IMG/VR virus record: IMGVR_UViG_3300017744_000088
Coordinates: 1 to 30,338 of that record
Reading direction: 5' to 3' (one strand)
DNA: 30,338 bases
Origin: a virus
The notes under the pieces were generated by a model. It did no database searches. It worked only from the letters and a program-made list of their open reading frames with translations, and was not told the DNA's origin. Each line of letters starts with the position of its first letter. Position 1 is the stretch's first letter. Position numbers and translations under genes: made by a program. Below are positions 12,971 through 30,338 of the stretch, piece after piece.

Positions 12971-13127
12971 AGCCTTTTACTGCTGAAATGATATCATTTT
13001 TCCATCGAGTTGATAATTCATTCGTGGTTAGGTCACTTGATTGAGCCCCTACGCCTAAAATATTCCCCACAGCTGCTTGCATTCTAGTCCATTGTGCATC
13101 TGTGAATGATACTGTTATGTCTGGCAT
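12936..13127 (-). CDS. Small protein following the tail-tip fibre
   Basis: A 63-residue protein: a predicted short beta start (MPDITVSFTDAQW) followed by helices (RMQAAVGNILGV, LSTRWKNDIISAVKGYEQE). Small proteins with a similar opening occur next to tail-fibre genes in many phages, where an assembly or chaperone role is suspected but unproven. Its ATG overlaps the fibre stop as TAATG and has a strong AAAGGAG, so expression is coupled to the fibre. Confidence 0.65.
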   Translation of the reverse strand: MPDITVSFTDAQWTRMQAAVGNILGVGAQSSDLTTNELSTRWKNDIISAVKGYEQENASLSDF

Positions 13128-16100
13128 TATTTATTCTCCTTTAGTTTTTCTATCTCTTCTTTTAGTTTTTTTATTTCCATTAGTAGTATTACTGATAATT
13201 TGTCGTAAGAAACACTTTCTGGTGTATTATCGTTATTATAATTTACTATTTCTGGTAGTATTTCTGCTACTTCTTCTGCTATCAATCCAATATCTTTCTT
13301 ACCTTCTGTAGCCGATTTTTCATTCCATTCAAAGTCTACAGGTCTTAAGTCATATAATTTATTTGAGTCTAAAGCTATATCAACTATGTTTGTTTTATAT
13401 CTTCTAGATGATGATTTTTTATGTACTACGTTTGAACCATCGACAACTAAGTCGGTACCTGAAGTAGTTCCTAAGGTATCCAACACTAACCCACTATTAT
13501 AGAATCTACCTCTTAAAGCTCCTCCTGTAGCAAAAGCTACTTCGTTTGCAGAGCTTTGATACATACCTGTATCTGTATCACCATTGAATGTATAGGCAGG
13601 GGAACCTGCTCCGGGGCTTGTACTAGCATACACTAACCCAGAATACAAAGCCCAAAACTCCCCACTACTAGAACCTAAAACAACTCCATCATTACCAATA
13701 TCGGCTGTATAACTAGGAAGAATGAACATAGTTTTATTTGCTTCATTAGGACCAATGTAGATATTATGAGAAAAATCAGTATCATACCCAGTACCACTTG
13801 CAGCTTCTTGTGTAGTAGCTAGCCAGTAAGTTGACGGAACTCCCCCAGACCCCCCGTCATAAACTGTTTGGTAATAAGTTCCTAATCCTTTAAGGGATAT
13901 TGCAGCACCATTTGAATGAGTAGCAGCACTTGTGCCTTCATAGTCACGCTCAACAGTCAACGTGTTAGATGATATGCTTTTCACAAGCATTTTTTCACTA
14001 TCTATTATAAGTACGTTACCTAATGCAAATTTTGTTCCATCAGAAACATCGACACCATCTTCACTAGCATCTAAATCTTCTGCTAAAGTTGCTCCAGAAG
14101 CCCTATTCTTAGATGAAGAGCCCATAGAAAACACAGAATCGGGGGTTAAGTCATTAGTATCTTCTAGAACAGACAACCCGCCAGCATATATTACTACTTT
14201 ATCTTCATTAGCCCCACTAGCTAATCTTCCTGTAGTTGGGTTTATTTTTATTTGTTGTTCCCCAGCCGCATTAAATGCTGTTATACCAGTACTATTCATA
14301 ATGAAGCCATTTTGGTCTGTACCACTACCATCATTAACCGTTGCACTTGTTTTTATATTGTTTGCTAAAACTAAGTTTGCTTCTAGTTTAGCTGCTGTAA
14401 TTGCATTAGCTTGTATATTATCTGCTTTTATAGCTCCAGCTGCCAATACACCGGCTGAAACTGTAGCTTCATTACCTGTAAAAGGGAATATAGAAGGAGA
14501 ATCTGAACCATCATCTGAGTTAGCAACCACTACTGTAGCTAATAGCATTCGGTCATCTTGGTATACATCTGAATAAGTATTACTTATTTTTAGCGTTTTA
14601 TTTGAATCATTTACTGCATATATCTTTACAGGGTTACCAGCACCATCATTTAGTGCTTGGGTTTGAGCCGACGTACTATTTTGTGCCCGATTTAATTCTG
14701 CAGTATCTCCATCTGTAATACTGTCAACAGTTAGATTTTCTTCTGAAATTTGTAACATTTGACCTACAAACATATTTGATGTAGAAGTTACCTCAAAAGT
14801 TTTTTCTGTTGTGGAGTCATTGGCTACCCTCATTGTAGTAATTTCAGGTTTACCTACTTCTTTATATATATAGTTAACCCCTGCTGCCAAAGTAACCTTA
14901 CCACCCGCAACAGATGAACTGTTACCTAAGCTAGCTGTACCAGTAGCACTATGAACAACTGTTTCAGTAGTATTGTCTGCAAATGAAATTGTAGCATCAC
15001 TACCTACAGAACCTTTTCGCCCAAATTTTATTTTGTTATACTCACCTGAAGTACCTGTAGCCTCAAAACTTAAGTTAGATGTAGCTTGTTGATTACCTTT
15101 TTTTAATAAAGATGCTTCTAAGGATTGCCCTTGTAATATTTCGCCAGCTTTTAACTTAGTTGCATTAGCCCCTTGAACGCTTTTTGATAAAACCCACCGA
15201 GCAAATGGAATATCATATTCAACAGTAGCGATTCTTATATATTTTGTACTTTGTTTTGCGGCAGTTTCATAATCGCTGAGTGTTTTTAAGGCGTAGGTTG
15301 AAGCACCCCTTAAATAATATAAAATATAAGGACCTGCTTGTGTAGTTATTGAACCAGTATTCCCGGCAGCTATTGAGTATTTTCTACTACCTACATATAA
15401 AGTTCCTGCTGTCCATGCTACTGTATGCTCATTGGCTGCTGAAAAGGTATTATCTATAGTTATTGTCAGGGCTTGTGATGGCTCTGGTTGGTCTGGAGCT
15501 TCAGGACTTCCCCAATCATCAAATAACACCTCCGCATCAGAAGCAAAAGCAGGTTTGCCAGCATCTGCCCCCACTTTTTGATTTGAGTCAACACCTACTG
15601 TATCAAATCTAGAAACCATAACCCCATTTTCATCTTTATGGTCAAGTTTAGTTACGAGCATATTTGTATTTAAATTAGATAAGTCATTTCTTACACTAAT
15701 ATAATCTCCGGCTCTAACTGGTACATAATATCTTACTGTATCACTAGCCGAAACTGTCCCGTATGACCACGTTATTCTTACGGCAGACGAAGTTGTACTA
15801 GTTACATAACCATAAACATTCGTAGCTGCATTATTAGCATCTAGTTTTACAACCAACATACCTGCCGTTACACCATAGTTTTGTGGGTTTTCACTACCAG
15901 ACAAATCAAGAGTTTGGTCTGAACCACTATGAGTTGTAACAGAAGCTGGACTATCATCAAAATAAAAAAATGGTCTTTCGTGTGTTTGAAATTTAGCTCT
16001 TACTAAAGGTTCTGTTCTTTTCTCTAGTAAGGAATATATAGCCTTTCTTTGTTCATTAGGAACTTTTATTGTTCCTAAGCCTGTCTGCAAATTTCTTCTT

Positions 16101-18025
16101 ATTCCGTACGCTGTTCTAGGTCTAGACCTTATTTGAAACTCTGCACTAGAAGAAGTTTGCCCCTTGAACTCTGTTCCTTCAGTCCAATAACTTGCGTTTT
16201 CACTAATTCTTTCGTCTACATCTGAAATTAATACATATGATGTAGCACTTGATGATACCGTAGCTGTTCCACCTTGTAGTCCTGTCCATTGTAATCTACA
16301 GACCTCTAAAGCAAAAATTTCTGCATTGTTAGAATGCGAAGCTACAGAAGGCGTAAGTCCCGTAGTAGGGTGAGGCTGCTCTCTTGTAACAGTAAGGGTG
16401 TCAGTAACTGTATTTATAGCTGTTACCTTCATTACTTCAGTACCTATTTCAATATGCTGCCCTATATAAAATCCTGCAACACCGGGATTATCTACAACAA
16501 TTGCTGTATCTGTAGTATTTATGCCATCAGCATCATTTAGTAAACCTATTTTAGCTTTTAAATATTCTGCACTTTCTGTACCCGGAGTACCATTGCTGAT
16601 ATCTTTCTCGGGATTACTTACTAATAAATCTACAAAATCATCAAAATTTGAAGCGGATTTTATTGAAATTAATTCAAATGTACCTTTGTCTGAAACAATT
16701 ATAGGTTCTGAAAGTTTATTTTCATTTGTAGATTTAGGTATCTCTTCTTCTAAATAAGAAACTGTTGCATCTGTATAGATTTCATTTTTAGGTCTTTTTA
16801 TATCATAAGATGTCATAGGTACACGCATAGTTGTTTTCGTGAAATCTCCTCCAGACGTAGTATCTGGGGATGGGTAGTGGACACTTAATCCATATGTTGC
16901 TGGAGTATTGTGTGGACGTTCGCCACGCTTAAAATAATTAAAAAAAGCTGATGGTTTATGGTCAGCTAAAGATGCGTTAGTACCATTTGTTGCTCCTCCC
17001 CAGTTAGGGTCTAAATAGTAATCATAACCATGTGTTATCTCTGTGCTATCTGAAATAGTATGGGGTTCTGTTTTAGCTAAACTTTTTATTCTACTTAAAA
17101 TTGATGTAAGCCCATTCATTTTAAAAGGTTTATTTCCACTGTTACTATCTACAATATATTTAGCTACAGATTCTGTAAACCTATCCGTATCCCCTGAGTT
17201 AGCATCTCCCGGAGTTGTTATGTTTTGGCTATATTCAGCTACAAGAGATTTTATTAATCCACTTCTGCTTGATATATAACCTTCTCCAGCGGTAGTTTGC
17301 CATATTTTGTTTCCTACATCTAAATTATCTGCTCCTGTCCCATGAGGAACTACTGCGTCATGCAAATTAGCATCATTATCCATTAGATAATCGTTACCAT
17401 CTATGCCTGAGTTTTCTGAAAGTTCTTGTAAAAAGTCATAACCAGTTATTGATATAACTTGTCCTACACCAATTTTAAAACTATCGTCTACAGAATAAGC
17501 AACTCCGTAAAAATATACATAGTGTGTGTCCCCATCTCTAAGTTTTATGTGGGTAAAGTCTAGTAACTTACCTGTATGAGGTCCTTTTGCAGTGCCCCCA
17601 CTATTAGAAAAAGGATGACTTGAAGCGTTGTTTATAATTGCTTTTAACATTAGTGGATTATGTAATGAGTCAATAAGTTCCCACCTTCTAACGTCACTTA
17701 CTGCTACATAAATATCTGCTCCACTATCAGCTGTTTCAGGAGATGACCCTCTAACAACTACAATAGTTGTACCATCTGTTATAGATACTACCTCTAGTTC
17801 TTCAGTATTTGTACCAAATTTAATTATCTGACCAGTATAAAACTCTGCACTTGATGAAACTGTAATAGCTGTTTCGCTATCATCTAAAGCTTCGTTTAAA
17901 GTAGCTGTTAGTTTTGTGTTTGCCCCATCTCTAAAACTAACTAAATCTTTCCATTTAGTCCCGTTCCAATAAGAAAAAATAGGTCTTTTTATGACTCTAG
18001 TAGGATTCGCTGTAGATATTGCCAT
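13127..18025 (-). CDS. Tail-tip hub/fibre with C-terminal S74 chaperone domain
   Basis: A 1632-residue protein at the tail tip. The N-terminus (about 1-200) resembles a tail or baseplate hub: DVRRWELIDSLHNPL, KLRDGDTHYVYFYGVAY, VGQVISITGYDFLQEL. A beta module (consensus GxxIxIGxExhxVxxI..LTVxR) is inserted at about 39-108 and recurs at about 493-573, 1062-1145 and 1307-1375. Residues about 1230-1300 carry fibre-like sequence (AITAAKLEANLVLANNI). The last 97 residues form a peptidase S74 intramolecular chaperone beginning SSSRRYKTNI, with the Ser/Lys pair expected for self-cleavage, and end in a coiled coil (LMEIKKLKEEIEKLKENK). It probably connects the tail tube to receptor recognition. Confidence 0.85.
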   Translation of the reverse strand: MAISTANPTRVIKRPIFSYWNGTKWKDLVSFRDGANTKLTATLNEALDDSETAITVSSSAEFYTGQIIKFGTNTEELEVVSITDGTTIVVVRGSSPETADSGADIYVAVSDVRRWELIDSLHNPLMLKAIINNASSHPFSNSGGTAKGPHTGKLLDFTHIKLRDGDTHYVYFYGVAYSVDDSFKIGVGQVISITGYDFLQELSENSGIDGNDYLMDNDANLHDAVVPHGTGADNLDVGNKIWQTTAGEGYISSRSGLIKSLVAEYSQNITTPGDANSGDTDRFTESVAKYIVDSNSGNKPFKMNGLTSILSRIKSLAKTEPHTISDSTEITHGYDYYLDPNWGGATNGTNASLADHKPSAFFNYFKRGERPHNTPATYGLSVHYPSPDTTSGGDFTKTTMRVPMTSYDIKRPKNEIYTDATVSYLEEEIPKSTNENKLSEPIIVSDKGTFELISIKSASNFDDFVDLLVSNPEKDISNGTPGTESAEYLKAKIGLLNDADGINTTDTAIVVDNPGVAGFYIGQHIEIGTEVMKVTAINTVTDTLTVTREQPHPTTGLTPSVASHSNNAEIFALEVCRLQWTGLQGGTATVSSSATSYVLISDVDERISENASYWTEGTEFKGQTSSSAEFQIRSRPRTAYGIRRNLQTGLGTIKVPNEQRKAIYSLLEKRTEPLVRAKFQTHERPFFYFDDSPASVTTHSGSDQTLDLSGSENPQNYGVTAGMLVVKLDANNAATNVYGYVTSTTSSAVRITWSYGTVSASDTVRYYVPVRAGDYISVRNDLSNLNTNMLVTKLDHKDENGVMVSRFDTVGVDSNQKVGADAGKPAFASDAEVLFDDWGSPEAPDQPEPSQALTITIDNTFSAANEHTVAWTAGTLYVGSRKYSIAAGNTGSITTQAGPYILYYLRGASTYALKTLSDYETAAKQSTKYIRIATVEYDIPFARWVLSKSVQGANATKLKAGEILQGQSLEASLLKKGNQQATSNLSFEATGTSGEYNKIKFGRKGSVGSDATISFADNTTETVVHSATGTASLGNSSSVAGGKVTLAAGVNYIYKEVGKPEITTMRVANDSTTEKTFEVTSTSNMFVGQMLQISEENLTVDSITDGDTAELNRAQNSTSAQTQALNDGAGNPVKIYAVNDSNKTLKISNTYSDVYQDDRMLLATVVVANSDDGSDSPSIFPFTGNEATVSAGVLAAGAIKADNIQANAITAAKLEANLVLANNIKTSATVNDGSGTDQNGFIMNSTGITAFNAAGEQQIKINPTTGRLASGANEDKVVIYAGGLSVLEDTNDLTPDSVFSMGSSSKNRASGATLAEDLDASEDGVDVSDGTKFALGNVLIIDSEKMLVKSISSNTLTVERDYEGTSAATHSNGAAISLKGLGTYYQTVYDGGSGGVPSTYWLATTQEAASGTGYDTDFSHNIYIGPNEANKTMFILPSYTADIGNDGVVLGSSSGEFWALYSGLVYASTSPGAGSPAYTFNGDTDTGMYQSSANEVAFATGGALRGRFYNSGLVLDTLGTTSGTDLVVDGSNVVHKKSSSRRYKTNIVDIALDSNKLYDLRPVDFEWNEKSATEGKKDIGLIAEEVAEILPEIVNYNNDNTPESVSYDKLSVILLMEIKKLKEEIEKLKENK

Positions 18026-20734: not shown

Positions 20735-22807
20735 TTATGGATATACAGGTACATTATCTCTTATTGTTATCTTCAAACTTCTAAATATCATACTTAAATC
20801 CACTTCTAACTGTTGGTCACCTGTTATGTCATGAGCAGCACTATTGATAAAAATACCTTGTTTATTTAATTGATTTGTATTATCTGTGCCCTCTGTAGGT
20901 GAACCAGCTGTAGTAGATGTTGGTATGTCTATTATTATATAATCATTAGTCCCTCTTTCAAACTTCATAGAAGCTGTCATACCTCTTCTGTGTATACTTC
21001 CTCCACCAGCACCATAATCACCTTCTAATAATAATTGTCTAAATAATTCTAATGCTCCACCTTGGTCGGAATTTGCTGCTGTTGCACCTGCACTGACATC
21101 TGCGTCTGGTAGAGCAACTGTTGCAGACATGGAATATTCTCTAGCTCCTTCTCTTATTTCGTAAGGACCTCTAGCTCTTCTTCCTTGTTTACCGATATAA
21201 TATCTTGGTTCCTCACCATTTGAAATTGATAATGAAAAACTTCTTATTCTAGCAAATTCTTGTCCAAAGAATTTTATGGTTCCTTCTGAAAAATAATATG
21301 GAGCTGTTGTTGGATAACCAGTTCCGTTATTAAGGGCTGCTGCCCCTCTATGACTAGGCTCACCTATATCATCATGGTCAATTTGTTGCATTAATCCAAA
21401 TCTAGGCAAGTTAGCGGCAACACTAGCACCTACATAATCATCTCCTAAAGCTGTACCCCCAACCGTTTTTTGGTTTTGTTGGTTGTGTACCATGTTTAGA
21501 AAATTTACTCCGTCCCAAGACATTGCTAACATTCCACCTTCTTCTGCAGATATTGTGGTAGAACCTATCATTCCCCCCACATATCTTCTGTCAAAATTTC
21601 TAGCCGTAGTTTCAGAACTATCTTTCATATGTATATGCCATGATACTGTATCAAGGCTTGTTGACTCTTCAATAGTATGGTCATAATAAGTATTGCTAGC
21701 ATCAACTACGTTTATTACAGAATTGTTAACATGGGCATGTTGGAAAGGGTAGTTTATTTTAAAGTTATCTGCTGTAGGTTCAGCTACTACTCGTCTTACT
21801 TCGGCAAAAGCACCATCAGTTGTTGAGTCTGAACTTCCACTAATTTTAAAATAATCTCCTGCAGCTAAATTAGCTACTTGAGCACCATCTGCTGCAAAGT
21901 ATATATCACCTTTAGCAGTTGCTCCATTTAATAATATTGTTCCTGCCTCAATAGTTCCGGGGGTTGTCTTAATTGTACCTATTGGAAATCTTAGTGGCCA
22001 TCCATTTAATAAAGTGATTCCACTAACCGAACCAGACAGAGTTTGTTGTCCGGGATAAAATGTAGATACATTTCTTTTAGATTGTGTACTAAGAAATCTT
22101 CTTCCTTCAATACTCATCTCTGGGTCTGGCGTATCTACTGTTTCATAAATGCCCGGAATAAATGTAATATATTTATCGTTATCATTCCTAGTATCATCTC
22201 CACCAATAGCAGAAACACATAGTACTGTTTGTCCACTTGCGTGTGCAAAAGCTAAAGGTCTATCTAAAACAAGTGATGTCCCAGATTGACTTTCAACTCT
22301 ACGTATTTCGTGAGGTACTATTGTTTGCCCAGCTGAGCCGGCAATAGTTCCTATTCTAATCATATCTCCGGGAGTAAATCTTGTTTTGACTGCGGCATCA
22401 TCAGCATGGTCAGCAGCAGCAGTACTACCTTCAAATCCCCTAACGACAGTTGCATCTCTGTTATTTGTTCCAGCTATAGCCGTAACTTGCATGCTTTCAC
22501 TACCGACTTGTAAAACCTGCCCTATATATAATTCAGGGTCACCAGTACTACCATTATCAAATGAGATAGCTGTATCTGCAGCATCAGCAGTGGTATCTCC
22601 AAAACATAAAACTGCATTTGAACCTGATGTATTAAAAACATTAAATTCTGCGTTTAGGGTTATAGTTCTGCTGCCTACCGCAGCGGCTGCTCCTAATGTT
22701 GCTGTAGGGGTACGTGCTAAAGTCCCCTCCATCATTTCCGGGTCTCCGCCTTGTGCAGTTTCTGCTGCAAATGTTAATTGTGCTTGGTCGCTTCGATATA
22801 TTGCCAT
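20735..22807 (-). CDS. Large major tail (tube) protein with inserted domains
   Basis: A 690-residue protein in the position of the major tail protein, before the G/GT chaperones. Tail-tube-like features are EMSIEGRRFLSTQSKRNVSTFYPGQQTLSGSVSG (about 223-256), a late beta region (REGAREYSMSATVALPDADV) and a closing segment QLEVDLSMIFRSLKITI. Typical tube proteins have 150-300 residues. Here the extra length comes partly from a beta module at about 32-150 (LYIGQVLQVGSESMQVTAI and VVRGFEGSTAAADHADDAAV), also found repeatedly in the tail-tip protein. This module may decorate the tube surface. The start is the ATG at 22807 with GGAG about ten bases ahead. A capsid protein is the less likely alternative. 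Confidence 0.7.
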   Translation of the reverse strand: MAIYRSDQAQLTFAAETAQGGDPEMMEGTLARTPTATLGAAAAVGSRTITLNAEFNVFNTSGSNAVLCFGDTTADAADTAISFDNGSTGDPELYIGQVLQVGSESMQVTAIAGTNNRDATVVRGFEGSTAAADHADDAAVKTRFTPGDMIRIGTIAGSAGQTIVPHEIRRVESQSGTSLVLDRPLAFAHASGQTVLCVSAIGGDDTRNDNDKYITFIPGIYETVDTPDPEMSIEGRRFLSTQSKRNVSTFYPGQQTLSGSVSGITLLNGWPLRFPIGTIKTTPGTIEAGTILLNGATAKGDIYFAADGAQVANLAAGDYFKISGSSDSTTDGAFAEVRRVVAEPTADNFKINYPFQHAHVNNSVINVVDASNTYYDHTIEESTSLDTVSWHIHMKDSSETTARNFDRRYVGGMIGSTTISAEEGGMLAMSWDGVNFLNMVHNQQNQKTVGGTALGDDYVGASVAANLPRFGLMQQIDHDDIGEPSHRGAAALNNGTGYPTTAPYYFSEGTIKFFGQEFARIRSFSLSISNGEEPRYYIGKQGRRARGPYEIREGAREYSMSATVALPDADVSAGATAANSDQGGALELFRQLLLEGDYGAGGGSIHRRGMTASMKFERGTNDYIIIDIPTSTTAGSPTEGTDNTNQLNKQGIFINSAAHDITGDQQLEVDLSMIFRSLKITIRDNVPVYP

Positions 22808-22840
22808 GTTTAAATTACTCCATAATTTATGTAGTATAGT

Positions 22841-22853
22841 TTATTATACTAAG
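22841..22853 (-). promoter_or_regulatory. AGTATAATAA candidate promoter before the major tail gene
   Basis: The minus strand reads CTTAGTATAATAA at the end of the tail-terminator gene, overlapping its TAG stop, about 35 bp before the major tail ATG. A short inverted repeat (AGTATA and TATACT) adjoins it. No -35 hexamer is visible. Confidence 0.4.
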
Positions 22854-23283
22854 TTTCTAATAAAATTCCGTTGTTCTCTAATTGAATCTCCAGAGTGCCT
22901 GTCCATATGTTAGCCTGTTCTCCAACCTCTTCATTAAAAGTCATGAACTGCTGTCTTTGAAAATTAGTTAAAGAGTGCATTCTAGCATGAGAAATTCTTC
23001 TTACTTCTCTCATTAGGTCAAATAACCTTTGTCTACTAGTTAAAGTATATAATTCTATCTCTATAGAATACAATCTGTTCCCATACTTCCTGTTACCTAT
23101 AGGCATTTCTTGAACCGCTGGGTTGCCAGTCCTACCTATCAAGTGGTCTCCCACATTTAAATCAAATCTAAATGGTTGATTAGCACCATTTACTGTAGTC
23201 AAAGAAGGTTTTGTTACATTACTTGCATTCCATTGACTATTTATATCAGTCATTATGTCGTCAATTGCTATTGGTTCAGGCAT
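22849..23283 (-). CDS. Probable tail terminator/tail completion protein
   Basis: A 144-residue protein between the neck protein and the major tail protein, the usual place of the tail terminator that caps the tube and joins it to the head. It opens with an amphipathic helix (IAIDDIMTDINSQW), has a core with RLYSIEIELYTLTSRQRLFDLMREVRRI (about 70-97), and closes with a beta strand (IWTGTLEIQLEN), compatible with the alpha/beta fold of these proteins. The start overlaps the upstream stop (TAATG) with GAGGTG. The function is inferred from position and general fold. Confidence 0.65.
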   Translation of the reverse strand: MPEPIAIDDIMTDINSQWNASNVTKPSLTTVNGANQPFRFDLNVGDHLIGRTGNPAVQEMPIGNRKYGNRLYSIEIELYTLTSRQRLFDLMREVRRISHARMHSLTNFQRQQFMTFNEEVGEQANIWTGTLEIQLENNGILLET

Positions 23284-24401
23284 TAAAACACCTCAAAAGC
23301 ACGCATACTATCTAAATTAGCCTCGATTTCATTCTGCCATGATTGGATTCGGCTACTGATATCATATCTATCCATACCACTAACCACTAACCCACCATAA
23401 TCAGCACTTCGAGCAATTTCTGTAGCAGCTAGTTTTTTTGTCATATCTGTAACCATACCGCCCTGTCTTATATCTGTTTGAATATCTCTACCATATAAAT
23501 AAGTTACTTTCACAGGCATAGTAAATTCTCCACCACCCCATCTCCATACTGGAGCATTGTAAGAAGTAAATCTTGCTGGTAACAAGAAGTACCTTGAGAA
23601 TTGCACCATCCCTGTATCAGGAACTAAAAAGTAGTCACCTGTTCTTCCTTGTCTTTTAGAATCCCAACCAGCACCACTCCATATTTGTAAGTCTAATATT
23701 TTGTAGGCATCTGCTTTATCTAAATGAAAACCATTTAAATTAAATTGTTGATATTCATTGTAAACAATATTTGGTCTCCAAGATTTTCTAGATTGCATAT
23801 CTATGTAAGACTGTGCCTCATAAATATATTGTTCTACTGTAGATTTTGAAGGAACTGTAGAACTAGTAAAATCAGTACCGCTAAGTACATTTTTAAGTTG
23901 CATTAGTTCATATATATCTTTAGTCGTACAGTAAGCTGCGTGAGGTCTCATTTGTATACGCTTAAATGTTGGTGCTGTACTTACACTACTAGGTGAAGAT
24001 ATTCTTACCCAATATAATGTACTACCATCTATTGCTACGGTAGCCCAATCGCTTAGTAAGTTTGCTGGAAATATTTCAGCTCCATCTTTACCAAAACCAT
24101 ATTGTCCACCCTCACTATCATCAGGGTCTAATTGATATCTTCCAGACGCTGGTATAAACTCGGTCCACGCACTGCCACTATAGTATTCATATTTTAAGGT
24201 TCCTAAACTTCCTGCCCCATCAATATCAAAAATCGCCATGTCAAACTTACTGTCATGACCTAAATATAAAAAATGACTTGTTTCGACAAAAGCTCCAAAC
24301 GAAGTACCTGAAGGCGATTGTGCCTCTAAGGTCATATCCCCGTAATTAGAACCGTTATAAGTTAATACTTTTGTAAATTCGGCTCCAGCAGTGGTCGCCA
24401 T
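23283..24401 (-). CDS. Head-tail connector (adaptor) protein with extra beta domain
   Basis: A 372-residue protein with two parts. Residues about 1-150 form a beta-rich region (HFLYLGHDSKFDMAIFDI, LKYEYYSGSAWTEFIP, ATVAIDGSTLYWVRI) resembling surface jelly-roll-like modules. Residues about 155-372 contain a helical lead like gp6-type adaptors (CTTKDIYELMQLKN, TVEQYIYEAQSYIDMQSRKSW), a beta middle part and a helical end (MTKKLAATEIARSADYG). The position before the tail terminator supports a neck adaptor that binds the portal. The fused N-terminal domain is unusual for an adaptor and may project outward. The ATG at 24401 has AGGAG. Confidence 0.65.
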   Translation of the reverse strand: MATTAGAEFTKVLTYNGSNYGDMTLEAQSPSGTSFGAFVETSHFLYLGHDSKFDMAIFDIDGAGSLGTLKYEYYSGSAWTEFIPASGRYQLDPDDSEGGQYGFGKDGAEIFPANLLSDWATVAIDGSTLYWVRISSPSSVSTAPTFKRIQMRPHAAYCTTKDIYELMQLKNVLSGTDFTSSTVPSKSTVEQYIYEAQSYIDMQSRKSWRPNIVYNEYQQFNLNGFHLDKADAYKILDLQIWSGAGWDSKRQGRTGDYFLVPDTGMVQFSRYFLLPARFTSYNAPVWRWGGGEFTMPVKVTYLYGRDIQTDIRQGGMVTDMTKKLAATEIARSADYGGLVVSGMDRYDISSRIQSWQNEIEANLDSMRAFEVF

Positions 24402-24410
24402 TTATATCTC

Positions 24411-24665
24411 CTAGGAGTCTTTATCTCCTGTTTTACCTTTTATTGCTTCTTTAGCTGCTTCTACAACTTCGTCTGGTACTCCACCTTCATTTATTATTTC
24501 TGGTGTATCATCTTTCCCTCTAAGGTACATTAGTACACCTTGTAGGTTTTGTACTTGTCCGACTAATTGTTCTCTGTGTGCATTTACTTTGTTTAGTTCA
24601 TCGACTAAAGCTTCCATTTTTTCAGTAACTGCTTTTAAATCGTTTTGTACATCTATCTCTGCCAT
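24411..24665 (-). CDS. Small coiled-coil protein
   Basis: An 84-residue acidic protein. Residues about 5-48 form a heptad-patterned helix (VTEKMEALVDELNKVNAHREQLVGQVQNLQGVLMYLRG), followed by an acidic linker and a second short helix (DEVVEAAKEAIKGK). It may trimerise or act as an assembly partner of the neighbouring neck or fibre proteins. No family is recognised. A strong AGGAG precedes the ATG at 24665, and a candidate promoter and short hairpin lie in the leader. Confidence 0.6.
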   Translation of the reverse strand: MAEIDVQNDLKAVTEKMEALVDELNKVNAHREQLVGQVQNLQGVLMYLRGKDDTPEIINEGGVPDEVVEAAKEAIKGKTGDKDS

Positions 24666-24690
24666 GTTTCTTTTCTCCTATATTCTTTAT

Positions 24691-24705
24691 CCCTTTTTAT
24701 AAGGG
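24691..24705 (-). other. Short hairpin in leader of the coiled-coil gene
   Basis: CCCTT and AAGGG flank a five-base loop between the candidate promoter at 24711 and the ATG at 24665. On the minus strand it is not followed by a T-run, so it is more likely a leader structure than a terminator. Confidence 0.3.
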
Positions 24706-24710
24706 TCTTT

Positions 24711-24723
24711 ATTATTATACTAG
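24711..24723 (-). promoter_or_regulatory. AGTATAATAA candidate promoter before the coiled-coil gene
   Basis: The minus strand reads CTAGTATAATAAT just after the stop of the small duplicated gene and about 48 bp before the next start. The same arrangement follows the other copy of the small gene. No -35 hexamer is visible. Confidence 0.4.
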
Positions 24724-24729
24724 ATTTTA

Positions 24730-25020
24730 TTAACTATCTATACTGTCATCCCAGTCACTTCTTTTAGTCCAAGTACCACTATCGTAGTCATACTTGTCCC
24801 CATAGTAAGCTGATGGAACATTAGTTACACTTTCGACTATAGTAGAGTTACCACTATGTAAGTCACCAATTATTAACTCTGGTGGGTCTCCTACTGTTAT
24901 TTCTGTAGATGTAACAGTTAATGTTTTATCATCTGGATAAACATATTTTACTCGTTTACTTTCGTCTGATGCATAACCATTAGATGTTGTCCATCCTGAT
25001 GAAATTATTATTTTACTCAT
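24730..25020 (-). CDS. Small fibre-associated protein, intact copy
   Basis: A 96-residue protein directly following the 939-residue fibre-like gene. It starts MSKIIISSGWTTSNGYA, has a beta-rich middle (DDKTLTVTSTEITVGDPPELIIGDLHSGNSTIV) and an aromatic, acidic end (YGDKYDYDSGTWTKRSDWDDSIDS). The function is unknown; by position it could be a fibre cap, decoration or assembly factor. A near-identical copy follows the second fibre gene at 27897-28187, but that one has TAG where this one has the TGG codon for Trp in GTWTK (24769-24771). The ATG has AGGAG. Confidence 0.7.
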   Translation of the reverse strand: MSKIIISSGWTTSNGYASDESKRVKYVYPDDKTLTVTSTEITVGDPPELIIGDLHSGNSTIVESVTNVPSAYYGDKYDYDSGTWTKRSDWDDSIDS

Positions 25021-25042
25021 TTGTTTTCTCCTATTCTATTCT

Positions 25043-27862
25043 TTATATTCGTGGTGCATTAATTAATACAGTTGTGGCTGTTAGTGCTTTACCTACATGT
25101 ACTGTTCCAACAGTTGTTGTTAAAGCTCCTCCGTCTGATATATACAAATGGCTTCCTATTGTTAAGGAACTTTGCCCTGTACCAATACCACCTGTAGTTG
25201 TCACTGTGCCTGTGGCTCCATCTGAAATTGCCGAATTAGCAATCCCAATAAAGCTACCAGCATTGTCAGCTACTACTGGTAATATCCCAAGCGTTCCTAA
25301 TGTACCTGTTTGAGGATTAAATGCTATAAAACTTTTGTTTGAATTAGTATCATAACAAGATGTTATATAGTTTATGTATCCACCACCGGTATCCCCATTT
25401 TCTGGTGCTACCATTGCAACAGCACCTACAACAAATTCTGCACTACTACCTGTACCAGATATTTCTCCCGTTGTAGTTATTACTCCACTATAACCATGAA
25501 CTATAACAAATTTAGCGGCATCTGGGTTATAATGCCCATGAAAATACAGCCCATATTCCATGTCTGCTGGTAAGTTTTCGTTACCATGCAATGAGCGTGT
25601 ACCCGCTGTTATAGAACCTGAAGCACTAGTAAAGGGTATAAACTCTGCTCCCCCTGCATATCCTTGACAAGCCATAAGATTTATATTTTTAACTGGGTCG
25701 TGCATAACCCTCATTGGTTGTGCCCCACCTATTTGTACACTGTTTAATGCCACGGCTGTCCCTGCTGTTAAAGTACCATTCCCACCGCCATCAGGGTCAA
25801 AAGATATAGATACTGCATAAGGATAGTTACTGTTTTGTGTATCCCTATAAACAACCATAGCTCTTTCATCATTATCGTCAAAACAGATACCCACACCATT
25901 GTCTCCACTTACATCATGTGCGTATAGTTGGGTATTAGAAGTAAATAAGTTAATATCATTGTCACTAGCACCTCTTATATTAACAGCTTTCATGTAAAGT
26001 TGATTAGAGTTATCTGCGTCTTCAAAAACAATAATAGCTCTGTTGTGAGTTGAGTCAAAACAAACAGCAGCATTTCTTTGTGAATTGTCTATTCCTTGAG
26101 CACCACCTATTGTCATTGTGTTTGAAGCTGCATCATTTACTGTAAAAGTTACGGACCTTAGACCGTTAGTTGTAGTATATACCCACAAAAATCTATCAAC
26201 ATTAGTATCGTATATTATCTCTCTTGCTGGTTGATAATTTATTGCTGAACTTTCAGCTACAACAGGAGTACCAAATGATAGTGTATGATTAGCAGCACTT
26301 GTTATATGCCCAAGTGCTAGGGTTGCGTAACTACTATTACTTCCGTCTCTATAACCAACGGCAATTTTATTATTATCTGGGTCAAATCCTGAAGAAATGT
26401 AAATAGAGTTACCACCACCCGGCTCGATTCTAGTAGCTCCCGGAGATGAAAACGTATTAAAGTCTAATCCAGCTTGAAGTGCTGCAGCGGTTTTTATTTT
26501 TCCATCTGATTCTAAAGCTACCAAATCACCTGCAGAAATTGCTCCATCAGCTACAGCGTCAAAAGAACTACCACCACTACCAATATATGTGCTTAAATCA
26601 GAAGCAGGTATTTGCTTAGTTGTTGAACCATCAATTACAATAAATGCATCTGCATCGGCAAGAGTAATTGAAGAAGTAGATTTAGCAGAACCATCTAAAA
26701 GATTTAATTCTGCCGCAGTTGAACCTACATTAGTACCACCAATATCTAAAGTTGTAACTGATAACTCACCAGCAACGGTAACAATGCTACCACTTGCTGT
26801 AAGTGTAAGTAAATCTTCGTCTCCAACAGGTCCTATAGTACCAGTGGTTTTTATAACAAGCCCACCATCGTCTATAGTTAGTATATCTGTACCATCTATG
26901 TCGAACACCATCTTTCCATGGTCACCAGTTCCTGATGCAGTAGCACTAGAGAAATGAACCTCTTCTGCTGTTTTGTTACTCCCACCATTAAGTACTTCTA
27001 TCTTCAAAGCTTCTGTAGCACTTGTCCCAATACTAAGTGATGTATCTGCATTGTTAGCATCGTGAAATAAGGTTACATCACTAAATGTCATTGCTAATGC
27101 ATTCGAAACAGCACCAATTGTTGTAAGTCCTGCTAGAGTTGTTACATTAGGTTGTGACGCAGTTGTTATAGTTGCTGCTAAACCACTATCATCTATTGTA
27201 ACAATATCGCTTCCGTCTACATCAAAAACCATTTTACCATGATTTGATGTTCCTGACGCTGTAGCGGTACTAAAGTGTACTTCTTCAGCGGTCTTATTAC
27301 TGCCCCCATTTAATACTTGTATAATAAGAGATTCGGCAGCTGATGTACCTAAAGATAATTTTACGTCAGCATTGTTTGCATCTCTATAAAATTCTAAGTC
27401 AGCGTTTGTTGTTAGCTTACCGGCTGCATGAGTTACAGTTACGTTCCCATTATTGAAATTTAAAACTCCTCCAGAAGCAATAAATAAATCAGACCACATA
27501 AGGCTAGTTGTACCTAGGGCAGTTCCATCGCTAGTTCCGGGAGAAAGACTATTTTCAGCTAACTCTACTTCTTTTGCATTATTAGCATAGAAGTTTATTT
27601 TGTTAGTATCTTCAAAGTCTATTTTTGTTTCGTTGTCTTCACCAATTTTTATATCTGCGACTAATAAAGAAGTTATACCTGTTTGGGCTGCATCAATATT
27701 TAATGTATTTGTAGATAAAGTTACACCTGTCCCCGCTGTAAAAGCAGTTTTAGATATAGCAATAGCTGCAGATGCATTAATATCTGCGTCTACAATGGCA
27801 CCATCTAAGATACCAGCTGACGATACACTAGCCGCTGACGGCTCTGAACCAACAAATCCCAT
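25043..27862 (-). CDS. Fibre-like protein 1 with putative seven-bladed propeller
   Basis: A 939-residue structural protein. The N-terminus has fibre-type repeats (DGAIVDADINASAAIAISKTAF), and two copies of an approximately 85-residue repeat lie at about 150-235 and 260-345 (core NGGSNKTAEEVHFSxATASG then HGKMVFDxDG). From about 490 to 857 seven repeats share FDxxxNKxxVVYxDxxNSxY-like blades, suggesting a seven-bladed beta-propeller. The ends before and after it (DGAISAGDLVALESDGKI and IGIANSAISDGATG, GKALTATTVLIN) look like halves of one beta domain enclosing it. It is a paralogue of the gene at 28197. Location between neck genes and (presumably) capsid genes suggests a head-associated fibre or a misplaced tail fibre. 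The ATG has AGGAGG. Confidence 0.75.
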   Translation of the reverse strand: MGFVGSEPSAASVSSAGILDGAIVDADINASAAIAISKTAFTAGTGVTLSTNTLNIDAAQTGITSLLVADIKIGEDNETKIDFEDTNKINFYANNAKEVELAENSLSPGTSDGTALGTTSLMWSDLFIASGGVLNFNNGNVTVTHAAGKLTTNADLEFYRDANNADVKLSLGTSAAESLIIQVLNGGSNKTAEEVHFSTATASGTSNHGKMVFDVDGSDIVTIDDSGLAATITTASQPNVTTLAGLTTIGAVSNALAMTFSDVTLFHDANNADTSLSIGTSATEALKIEVLNGGSNKTAEEVHFSSATASGTGDHGKMVFDIDGTDILTIDDGGLVIKTTGTIGPVGDEDLLTLTASGSIVTVAGELSVTTLDIGGTNVGSTAAELNLLDGSAKSTSSITLADADAFIVIDGSTTKQIPASDLSTYIGSGGSSFDAVADGAISAGDLVALESDGKIKTAAALQAGLDFNTFSSPGATRIEPGGGNSIYISSGFDPDNNKIAVGYRDGSNSSYATLALGHITSAANHTLSFGTPVVAESSAINYQPAREIIYDTNVDRFLWVYTTTNGLRSVTFTVNDAASNTMTIGGAQGIDNSQRNAAVCFDSTHNRAIIVFEDADNSNQLYMKAVNIRGASDNDINLFTSNTQLYAHDVSGDNGVGICFDDNDERAMVVYRDTQNSNYPYAVSISFDPDGGGNGTLTAGTAVALNSVQIGGAQPMRVMHDPVKNINLMACQGYAGGAEFIPFTSASGSITAGTRSLHGNENLPADMEYGLYFHGHYNPDAAKFVIVHGYSGVITTTGEISGTGSSAEFVVGAVAMVAPENGDTGGGYINYITSCYDTNSNKSFIAFNPQTGTLGTLGILPVVADNAGSFIGIANSAISDGATGTVTTTGGIGTGQSSLTIGSHLYISDGGALTTTVGTVHVGKALTATTVLINAPRI

Positions 27863-27880
27863 TAGTTTATTCCTCCTTTG

Positions 27881-27892
27881 TTATTATACTCA
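27881..27892 (-). promoter_or_regulatory. AGTATAATAA candidate promoter before fibre-like gene 1
   Basis: The minus strand reads GAGTATAATAAC about 20 bp before the fibre ATG and immediately after the small-gene copy. If used, the leader would be very short, with the AGGAGG close to the transcript start. Confidence 0.4.
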
Positions 27893-27896
27893 TTTT

Positions 27897-28187
27897 TTAA
27901 CTATCTATACTGTCATCCCAGTCACTTCTTTTAGTCTAAGTACCACTATCGTAGTCATACTTGTCCCCAAAGTAAGCTGATGGAACATTAGTTACACTCT
28001 CGACTATAGTAGAGTTACCACTATGTAAGTCTCCAATTATTAACTCTGGTGGGTCTCCTACTGTTATTTGTTCAGATGTAACAGTTAATGTTTTATCATC
28101 TGGATAAACATATTTCACTCGTTTGCTTTGGTCTGTTGCATAACCATTAGATGTTGTCCATCCTGATGAAATTATTATTTTACTCAT
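27897..28187 (-). repeat. Second copy of the small-gene region (compare 24730-25020)
   Basis: About 290 bp match 24730-25020 with roughly a dozen differences counted by eye. Similarity continues past the stop into the AGTATAATAA element that follows both copies, so the duplicated block includes gene and downstream signal. Confidence 0.85.
27936..28187 (-). CDS. Small fibre-associated protein, copy truncated by an amber codon
   Basis: This 83-residue frame is nearly identical to the 96-residue protein at 24730-25020. It stops at a TAG (27936-27938) in place of the TGG codon for Trp in GTWTK. The 12 codons after the TAG, through TKRSDWDDSIDS and TAA at 27897, are still present and unchanged in sequence, so the change is recent, a sequencing or population variant, or the amber is read through. 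The protein core is retained and might still fold. It follows fibre-like protein 2 by 9 bp, with AGGAG before the ATG. Confidence 0.65.
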   Translation of the reverse strand: MSKIIISSGWTTSNGYATDQSKRVKYVYPDDKTLTVTSEQITVGDPPELIIGDLHSGNSTIVESVTNVPSAYFGDKYDYDSGT

Positions 28188-28196
28188 TTACTTCTC

Positions 28197-30338
28197 CTAT
28201 TGCTTGACTGGTGCATTTACTAGTATTGTAGTTGCTGATAAAGCTCTACCGACTGGGGTTCCACCTGAAGTTGTTACTAAAGCTCCCCCAGAATCAATAT
28301 AGTACTGAGAGCCAACAGTTAAACTACTTTGGTTTGTTCCTATTCCTCCACTTGTTACTGTACCCGTAGCATCATTAGAAATTGCTGAATTTGCAATACC
28401 TATGAACTTTCCACAATTGTAAGGAACTGTTGGTAAGGTGGCATACATAGCCTTCTCTGCAGTATTTGCAAAATAAAAAATAGCGTGTTTATTAGAGTTC
28501 GTATCGTAAGCAGCTGACATATAGGTAATATACCCACCATTAGTCTCGCCATTTTTTGGAACATAAGCAATTGTATCATCTACAGTATACGTTGCACTAC
28601 TTCCGGTTCCGGAAATGTCACCTGTTTGAACTATCATACCACTATAAGAATTAAAAACAACTATTCTTTCAAAATCTGGATTATAGTTTGCAAATGTGGG
28701 ACTTCCAAGTTCATGTCCTAAAGCAGCAACAGCGGTTTCTGTAAACATAGTTCCGGCTGTTATTGTTCCTGAAGAACTTGTAAATGGCATGTATAACAGA
28801 TTTGTTCCACCTGAATTTCTAGTAACAAATAAATTAATGTTCTTAGCTGCATGATGTACAAGACTACCATGATAACCAGCATTTAGTGTTACGGTGTTTA
28901 AAACTACCGCAGTACCCACAGTAAGTGAATTATCAGAATTATCTACTGTTAAAGCCACGGCTGTTGGGCGACGACTATTACTAGCATCCCCATAAACAAA
29001 CATTACTTTGTTATCATTAGAATCAAAACACATACCTAGTACAATTGTATCTGCATCATCAGCGTCTGTAACAGCCGCAACTGAACCTATACTTTGTATA
29101 TCATTGTCACTGCTCCCCCTTACGGTAAATGCAACAGCGTTAAAATGATTGCTGTCTCCCTCATCTTCAAACACCATAACCATTCGGTTTGCATTTGAGT
29201 CAAAGACAATTGAGAAAGCTCGGTCAGAAGAATCTTCAAGTGTTTGTTGACTTCCTGCAGTAATTGTATTAGAGGCTGCATCATTTACAGTGCATACTTT
29301 AGCATATATCTTGCCGTCGCCAGTTTGATAAGGCACTACAAATCTATCTACACTTGTATCATAAGGAATATTTGCTCCTGTTATAACGTTATATCCTGTA
29401 CCACCACTACTTAAGACTACCGGAGTTCCGAAAGACATTGTATGAGCAGCTGCATCACTTATATGACCCATTGCCATAGTTGGGTAGTTACTATTGTCAG
29501 CGTCTCTGTAAGCTACAATAAATTTATTATTATCTGGGTCAAAACCGATAGAAGAATAATAACCATCATCATTAGCATCAACTGTTGTACCCGAGTTAGA
29601 TGCAAACCCAGCCCAAGCTTTACCTTCTTGGATACCTTGAGCTTTTTCTATATCACCATCAGCTCTAATAGCTACTAGGTCACCAGCTGAAATAGCACCA
29701 TTTGCTGTTGCTGTAAACTCAACTCCTCCACCTCCAGCATCTTCCCAAGCTGGAGCTGTTCCTGCACCAGTAGAGGTTAGTACTTGACCATCTGAACCAT
29801 AATTAGCACCACCAATTCCAATTTCTCCTTGTGAAGTAAATCTAAATTTTTCTGTGGCGGCTTCAGAATGTCCTGTTTTGAATACTAAGTCTGTTGCATT
29901 GACAGAAGCACTAAATGTTCCTTGTGCTACTGCTTCAATACCAGCTGCTACTGTAATAGCATCTGTACCATCAGCTTCGTGTGGTGCTTGAAATTCAATC
30001 TTTCCAAGAACATCGTTTGCATTAATATCTGTAAGAGATGTTGCAAGTAATAATTTTCCTGTACTTGTCGTAGCATCTGCAGACGCACCCATTATTCTTA
30101 GTTGGTCTGCTGACTCATCCCATTCCATATAAGCTCCGGATGAAGCTCCAAAAAACTTCACATCATGTCCTGTATCATTAACACCTATAGTAAGCGTACC
30201 TACCATTGAAGTGTTCCCAGTAACATCTAGACTAGCCGTAACGTCTAATTGGTCTGCGGATTCGTCCCATTCCATATATTTGCCAGATGTAGCTCCGAAG
30301 AATTTTACATCATGACCAGTGTCGTCTACACCTACAGT
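28197..30338 (-). CDS. Fibre-like protein 2 with putative seven-bladed propeller (5' end outside window)
   Basis: The frame is open to the right edge, so the N-terminus is missing; 713 codons are visible. It begins with a tandem repeat of about 49 residues (GHDVKFFGAxSGxYMEWDESADQL, two copies visible), a modular shaft-like sequence. After a glycine linker it shares the whole C-terminal part with fibre-like protein 1: DGDIEKA-type lead, seven blade-like repeats (for example IGFDPDNNKFIVAYRDADNS and MCFDSNDNKVMFVYGDASNS) and the closing IGIANSAISNDATG / VGRALSATTILVN domain. The N-terminal parts of the two paralogues differ. Likely a receptor- or surface-binding fibre; head or tail location is not settled. 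Confidence 0.75.
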   Translation of the reverse strand, partial: TVGVDDTGHDVKFFGATSGKYMEWDESADQLDVTASLDVTGNTSMVGTLTIGVNDTGHDVKFFGASSGAYMEWDESADQLRIMGASADATTSTGKLLLATSLTDINANDVLGKIEFQAPHEADGTDAITVAAGIEAVAQGTFSASVNATDLVFKTGHSEAATEKFRFTSQGEIGIGGANYGSDGQVLTSTGAGTAPAWEDAGGGGVEFTATANGAISAGDLVAIRADGDIEKAQGIQEGKAWAGFASNSGTTVDANDDGYYSSIGFDPDNNKFIVAYRDADNSNYPTMAMGHISDAAAHTMSFGTPVVLSSGGTGYNVITGANIPYDTSVDRFVVPYQTGDGKIYAKVCTVNDAASNTITAGSQQTLEDSSDRAFSIVFDSNANRMVMVFEDEGDSNHFNAVAFTVRGSSDNDIQSIGSVAAVTDADDADTIVLGMCFDSNDNKVMFVYGDASNSRRPTAVALTVDNSDNSLTVGTAVVLNTVTLNAGYHGSLVHHAAKNINLFVTRNSGGTNLLYMPFTSSSGTITAGTMFTETAVAALGHELGSPTFANYNPDFERIVVFNSYSGMIVQTGDISGTGSSATYTVDDTIAYVPKNGETNGGYITYMSAAYDTNSNKHAIFYFANTAEKAMYATLPTVPYNCGKFIGIANSAISNDATGTVTSGGIGTNQSSLTVGSQYYIDSGGALVTTSGGTPVGRALSATTILVNAPVKQ

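Follow-up and report, generated by a model that had tools for sequence, protein, structure and literature searches.

Phage Mu carries two alternative pairs of fibre and chaperone genes (S-U and S'-U') in one genome, arranged in inverted orientation in the G segment and switched by an invertase. In Lentibacter phage vB_LenP_ICBM2, several fibre-like genes stand in a row and each is followed by one of three small assembly-chaperone genes. For the Alteromonas phages A5 and V22, a host-recognition module consisting of a fibre and its cognate chaperone has been described that is exchanged by recombination between distantly related marine phages (PMC10579305). In marine phage genomes, local variability also falls on tail-fibre and host-recognition genes, in the metaviromic islands detected by read recruitment (PMC3909814).

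We analyzed a linear virus record of 30,338 bases (the window) whose recognisable genes lie on the minus strand. It shares with Mu the presence of two pairs of fibre and assembly gene in one genome, but its pairs are direct, a promoter-like element lies near both and no inversion was seen. A Mu-type invertible fibre cassette was considered and rejected on the direct orientation of the copies and on the inverted repeats of 22000-30338, where only a 20-nt pair of 80% identity was found. In case of A5 and V22 one module per genome is described, whereas the window holds two in tandem, with the small gene alone homogenised within the genome. The arrangement of ICBM2 is similar and its last small gene carries the domain of smB, one of the small proteins of the window; however, the ICBM2 protein continues into a Phage_tail_APC domain at its C-terminus, which is absent from the small proteins of the window. 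Compared with the read recruitment that revealed metaviromic islands, the signs of variability in the window are contig breaks and mosaic identity.

The gene order on the minus strand is fib1 (cut by the contig end), smA, AGTATAATAA, fib2, smB and again AGTATAATAA, followed by tail genes (Table 1). A fibre gene followed by a small gene, twice in tandem, had been put forward in the original prediction and is what we see. Downstream of smB lie AGTATAATAA (24712), the gene of an 84-aa protein, p372 (encoding a 372-aa protein), the gene of a 144-aa protein, another AGTATAATAA copy (22841) and the tail-tube gene. The locus belongs to a marine tailed phage with two successive tail-fibre genes. Behind each of them stands a copy of one small gene, which probably functions in fibre assembly. 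Among the other genes, the tail-tube protein (20735-22807) matches PF18906 (E 1.9e-9), and its sole matches in annotated phages are the haloarchaeal tailed viruses HHTV-2 and HCTV-5 (25-29% identity). A 1632-aa protein (13127-18025) carries a Peptidase_S74 self-cleaving chaperone domain (E 9e-12) at its end; it may thus serve as an additional receptor-binding protein whose chaperone is built in.

Table 1. Coordinates of the tandem fibre array in the window.
Feature	Position	Strand	Basis and remarks
fib1, tail-fibre-like protein	28197..30338	-	open frame; 713 aa visible, 5' end lost at contig end
fib1 C-terminal repeat domain and terminal decoration-like domain	28208..29540 (approximate limits)	-	motif matches; weak phrog_122 match
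smA, small accessory gene copy A	27936..28187	-	83 aa; amber codon where copy B has TGG
smA remnant past the amber codon	27897..27935	-	in frame with smB C-terminus; comparison of 97 codons including stop
AGTATAATAA, promoter-like element upstream of fib2	27881..27890	-	conserved at same place in L004
fib2, tail-fibre-like protein	25043..27862	-	complete, 939 aa
fib2 C-terminal repeat domain and terminal cement-like domain	25052..26390 (approximate limits)	-	motif matches; Phage_cement_2 below Pfam's cut-off
smB, small accessory gene copy B	24730..25020	-	96 aa
AGTATAATAA, promoter-like element upstream of 84-aa gene	24712..24721	-	exact copy

The small gene, together with a few bases at each end, forms a 297-nt direct repeat of 96% identity (24726-25022 and 27893-28189). 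Within the gene 280 of 291 nucleotides are identical, compared with 42 of 70 before it and 47 of 95 after it. The near identity of the copies predicted at the DNA level is thus real, but the smA protein is shortened. The 11 differences fall into 4 synonymous and 6 non-synonymous codons, giving a dS of 0.07 and a dN/dS of about 0.4 that derives from very few changes. For the adjoining fibre C-halves dS is 1.52, and comparing substitutions by segment, as had been proposed, shows non-uniform divergence. The sequences next to the small genes follow position: the downstream flank of smA is identical at 101 of 110 nucleotides to position A of L004, and that of smB at 109 of 110 to L008, both from other species (L numbers are our labels for related contigs). 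Paralogues within one genome are therefore closer to each other than to their orthologues, while their flanks are orthologous by position. Because identity ends at the gene edges and the flanks follow position, the cassettes must be old and the small gene alone recently overwritten. On these alignments, the small gene is homogenised within the genome by recent gene conversion, a sharply bounded instance of concerted evolution among tandem fibre modules and one of the two readings offered originally. The last 51 nt of smA agree with the B-type L008 at 49 of 51 positions and with the A-type L004 at only 34 of 51, so that copying at the 3' end of the gene probably ran from B to A.

The same layout could also stem from a recent duplication of the whole fibre and small-gene cassette with subsequent fast fibre divergence under diversifying selection. 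The order of parts is indeed alike in both cassettes, AGTATAATAA included. However, the fibre dS is near saturation, which selection at the protein level cannot account for, and the positional orthology of the flanks to other species largely refutes such a duplication. Further, the two cassettes stand in this order in the sister genome (L004/L006) as well, where the small genes have diverged strongly (dS ~3, saturated), and the layout is therefore older than the homogenisation, although replacement of the whole second module by another type is an alternative for this genome. We consider a recent duplication very unlikely. Strong constraint on the protein or DNA of the small gene, the other reading offered originally, would keep the copies alike without recombination and fits their 96% identity beside diverged fibres. 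Between species, however, the small gene diverges freely (dS 0.37 to above 2, dN 0.11 to 0.6), and non-synonymous changes outnumber synonymous ones between smA and smB, one of them creating a stop. We reject constraint as an explanation and regard it as extremely improbable.

This stop results from codon 84 of smA, which reads TAG (27936-27938) while the frame onward to the common C-terminus is unchanged. As a result smA lacks the last 13 residues, among them the conserved W84. Either a recent loss for which smB compensates or an error in the sequence may lie behind the amber codon. Reassignment of the codon was also considered, but TAG terminates 11 of the 35 genes counted, including fib1, and recoding is therefore unlikely. 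Both copies further share an insertion that is absent from four full-length homologues of this type (L003, L004 position A, L005 and L008). An exact-match search of viral contigs with the insertion DNA found nothing, leaving no closer strain for comparison.

In contrast to the small genes, the two fibres have diverged strongly, as originally noted. Their C-halves align end to end with 48% protein identity (dN 0.49), while in DNA an identity of 72% extends over a 138-nt patch only. Six motif matches were found in each C-half, spaced 51-60 aa with one double gap (fib1: residues 266, 326, 379, 438, 552 and 611; fib2: residues 493, 551, 602, 661, 778 and 837). This pattern probably represents about seven propeller-like repeats, as in a seven-bladed beta-propeller. 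Profile searches against the PDB gave no match, the repeat domain included. At the end of the proteins, fib1 shows a weak match to the head-decoration family phrog_122 (residues 638-703) and fib2 a similarly weak one to Phage_cement_2 (residues 869-930). In a DNA search of annotated phages the sole matches were short ones in the fibres, to HTVC033P, CRP-345 and AG-345-E15. The fib2 C-half has no match among these phages.

The N-terminal halves had been described as different. This is true of the shafts, as nothing in the N-half of fib2 significantly matches the visible part of the fib1 shaft, but it is partly an edge effect because the fib1 N-terminus lies beyond the right end of the window. 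The fib1 orthologue in IMGVR_UViG_3300025131_000017 (L087), 76% identical to fib1 in the C-half and 92% over 157 aa of the shaft, starts with MGFVGTKP, and fib2 starts with MGFVGSEP; the two N-termini are 38% identical over 245 columns. The fibres therefore have a common anchor but different shafts. The fib2 N-terminus is 62% identical to the fibre found at this position in L004. In the fib1 shaft (30099-30338) we also observed two 93-nt direct repeats of 77% identity, the window ending exactly where the second copy ends.

Diversifying selection on the fibres had been suggested, yet dN/dS is about 0.3 both between fib1 and fib2 (0.49/1.52, near saturation) and between fib1 and its orthologue (0.16/0.56), values that are pairwise averages and may mask selection on few sites. 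Judged by the dN/dS of the fibres and of the small-gene pair, neither diversifying selection nor unusual constraint is evident. Since both fibres retain the C-terminal repeat domain, two binding specificities are plausible, and the two fibres would then bind different surface groups. Rows of two or three similar fibres are also present in other phages (L009, L014, L028 and L089).

With respect to the role of the small protein, an iterated profile collected a family of 17 members among the small proteins compared, both window copies counted. Neither smA nor smB matches a Pfam family, Phage_tail_APC (PF16778) included, or any chaperone family. In the ICBM2 homologue, however, the smB-like domain is N-terminal and joined to the Phage_tail_APC domain. 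The small gene lies directly downstream of a fibre gene in the window and, in most cases seen, in relatives. Its type also tracks the type of the fibre C-half, L004_B and L028 pairing with full support in both trees, while the shortness and mosaic nature of the gene leave tree support within the small-gene group weak. The domain fusion and the pairing of types support, without proving, a putative cognate role in fibre assembly or capping. Alternatively, the gene might encode a virion or regulatory protein of unrelated function, which accompanies fibres without acting on them. Such a protein would agree with the lack of chaperone-family matches and with the unrelated small proteins of similar size that follow other fibres of this phage group. 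Given the fusion of a homologue to a tail-assembly-chaperone domain, the position right after the fibre and the correspondence of types, we regard this alternative as possible though rather unlikely.

The element AGTATAATAA occurs exactly three times in the window (22841, 24712 and 27881), always intergenic and on the minus strand, compared with 0.29 occurrences expected from shuffles. Copies do follow each small gene as originally noted, but the third precedes the tail-tube gene and the element is therefore not cassette-specific. In related contigs, some duplicates included in the counts, the coding strand has 21 copies and the opposite strand two, almost all of them 3-49 bases ahead of a gene start. 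The element contains TATAAT, which would suit a candidate promoter-like element. Between AGTATAATAA and the 84-aa gene (24660-24730), a small CCCUU/AAGGG hairpin recurs in relatives, its folding energy being ordinary (z -1.0).

Exchange in the fibre region also extends across species. L087 represents the other end of the 81.5-kb contig of L004, and its final 127 bases match the first 127 of L005 exactly. L003 and L004 both begin at base 212 of L005, and the first 127 bases of L004 are identical to L003. Two identical 127-base stretches, separated by about 84 bases missing from the L004 contig, are thus common to two species whose p372 genes differ with a dS of about 1.0. By these identities, DNA in the fibre region is recently shared between two related species. 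The recurring number 127 suggests the word length of the assembler, consistent with the concentration of contig ends upstream of p372. A scan of genome contigs with p372 found no relative. The 84-aa gene (24411-24665) differs from L008 (2041-2295) with a dS of 0.18, while the next gene, p372, shows a dS of 0.99 to L008; the 84-aa gene probably marks a further tract of recent exchange next to the fibre array.

Contig ends also bear on whether the window joins the fibre regions of two phage strains in one chimeric assembly. Assemblers do struggle here: of 61 contigs in this group, 44 have an end within 5 kb on the upstream side of p372 and one has an end within 5 kb on the downstream side. These counts are not independent, as some contigs represent the same phage sampled twice, and the p-value of the test exaggerates the contrast. 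Nevertheless, no 55-mer is repeated in 24700-30338, and the longest exact run common to both cassettes around the small gene is 53 nt. Further, two sister contigs, from separate assemblies of another species, show the same small-fibre-small order with a fib1 C-terminus in front and a conserved A-side flank. Assembly collapse thus appears unlikely, and we give a chimera very little credence.

Overall, we favour with reasonable confidence an old tandem of receptor-binding fibre and cognate accessory modules in which the small gene was recently homogenised by gene conversion, the array most likely being under frequent recombination. Each module would consist of a fibre with a shared N-terminal anchor, an exchangeable shaft and a C-terminal repeat domain, and of a small cognate accessory protein encoded downstream, which probably caps the fibre tip or aids its folding, as tail-fibre-assembly chaperones do. 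Homogenisation between modules would proceed via homologous recombination, most likely helped by the RecA that the phage encodes. Fibre ends and promoter-like elements would be too diverged for conversion and hence keep their separate ancestry. More doubtfully, the accessory gene might itself act as a homology handle: alike within and between genomes, it would anchor crossovers that swap fibre heads between positions and species, one allele would serve several fibres and the amber codon of smA would be tolerated with smB serving both.

In conclusion, this locus is a fairly ordinary case of the reshuffling of phage host-recognition genes, of the kind expected from known fibre/chaperone modules (PMC10579305) and marine metaviromic islands (PMC3909814). 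Reshuffling of fibre modules helps explain why metagenomic contigs of this group break so frequently in the fibre region. If the small gene is indeed a recombination anchor, it could be used to track host-recognition modules as they move between uncultured phages. The array provides a natural example of marine phages keeping and reshuffling several fibre modules, with a recombination footprint that is legible to within one gene.
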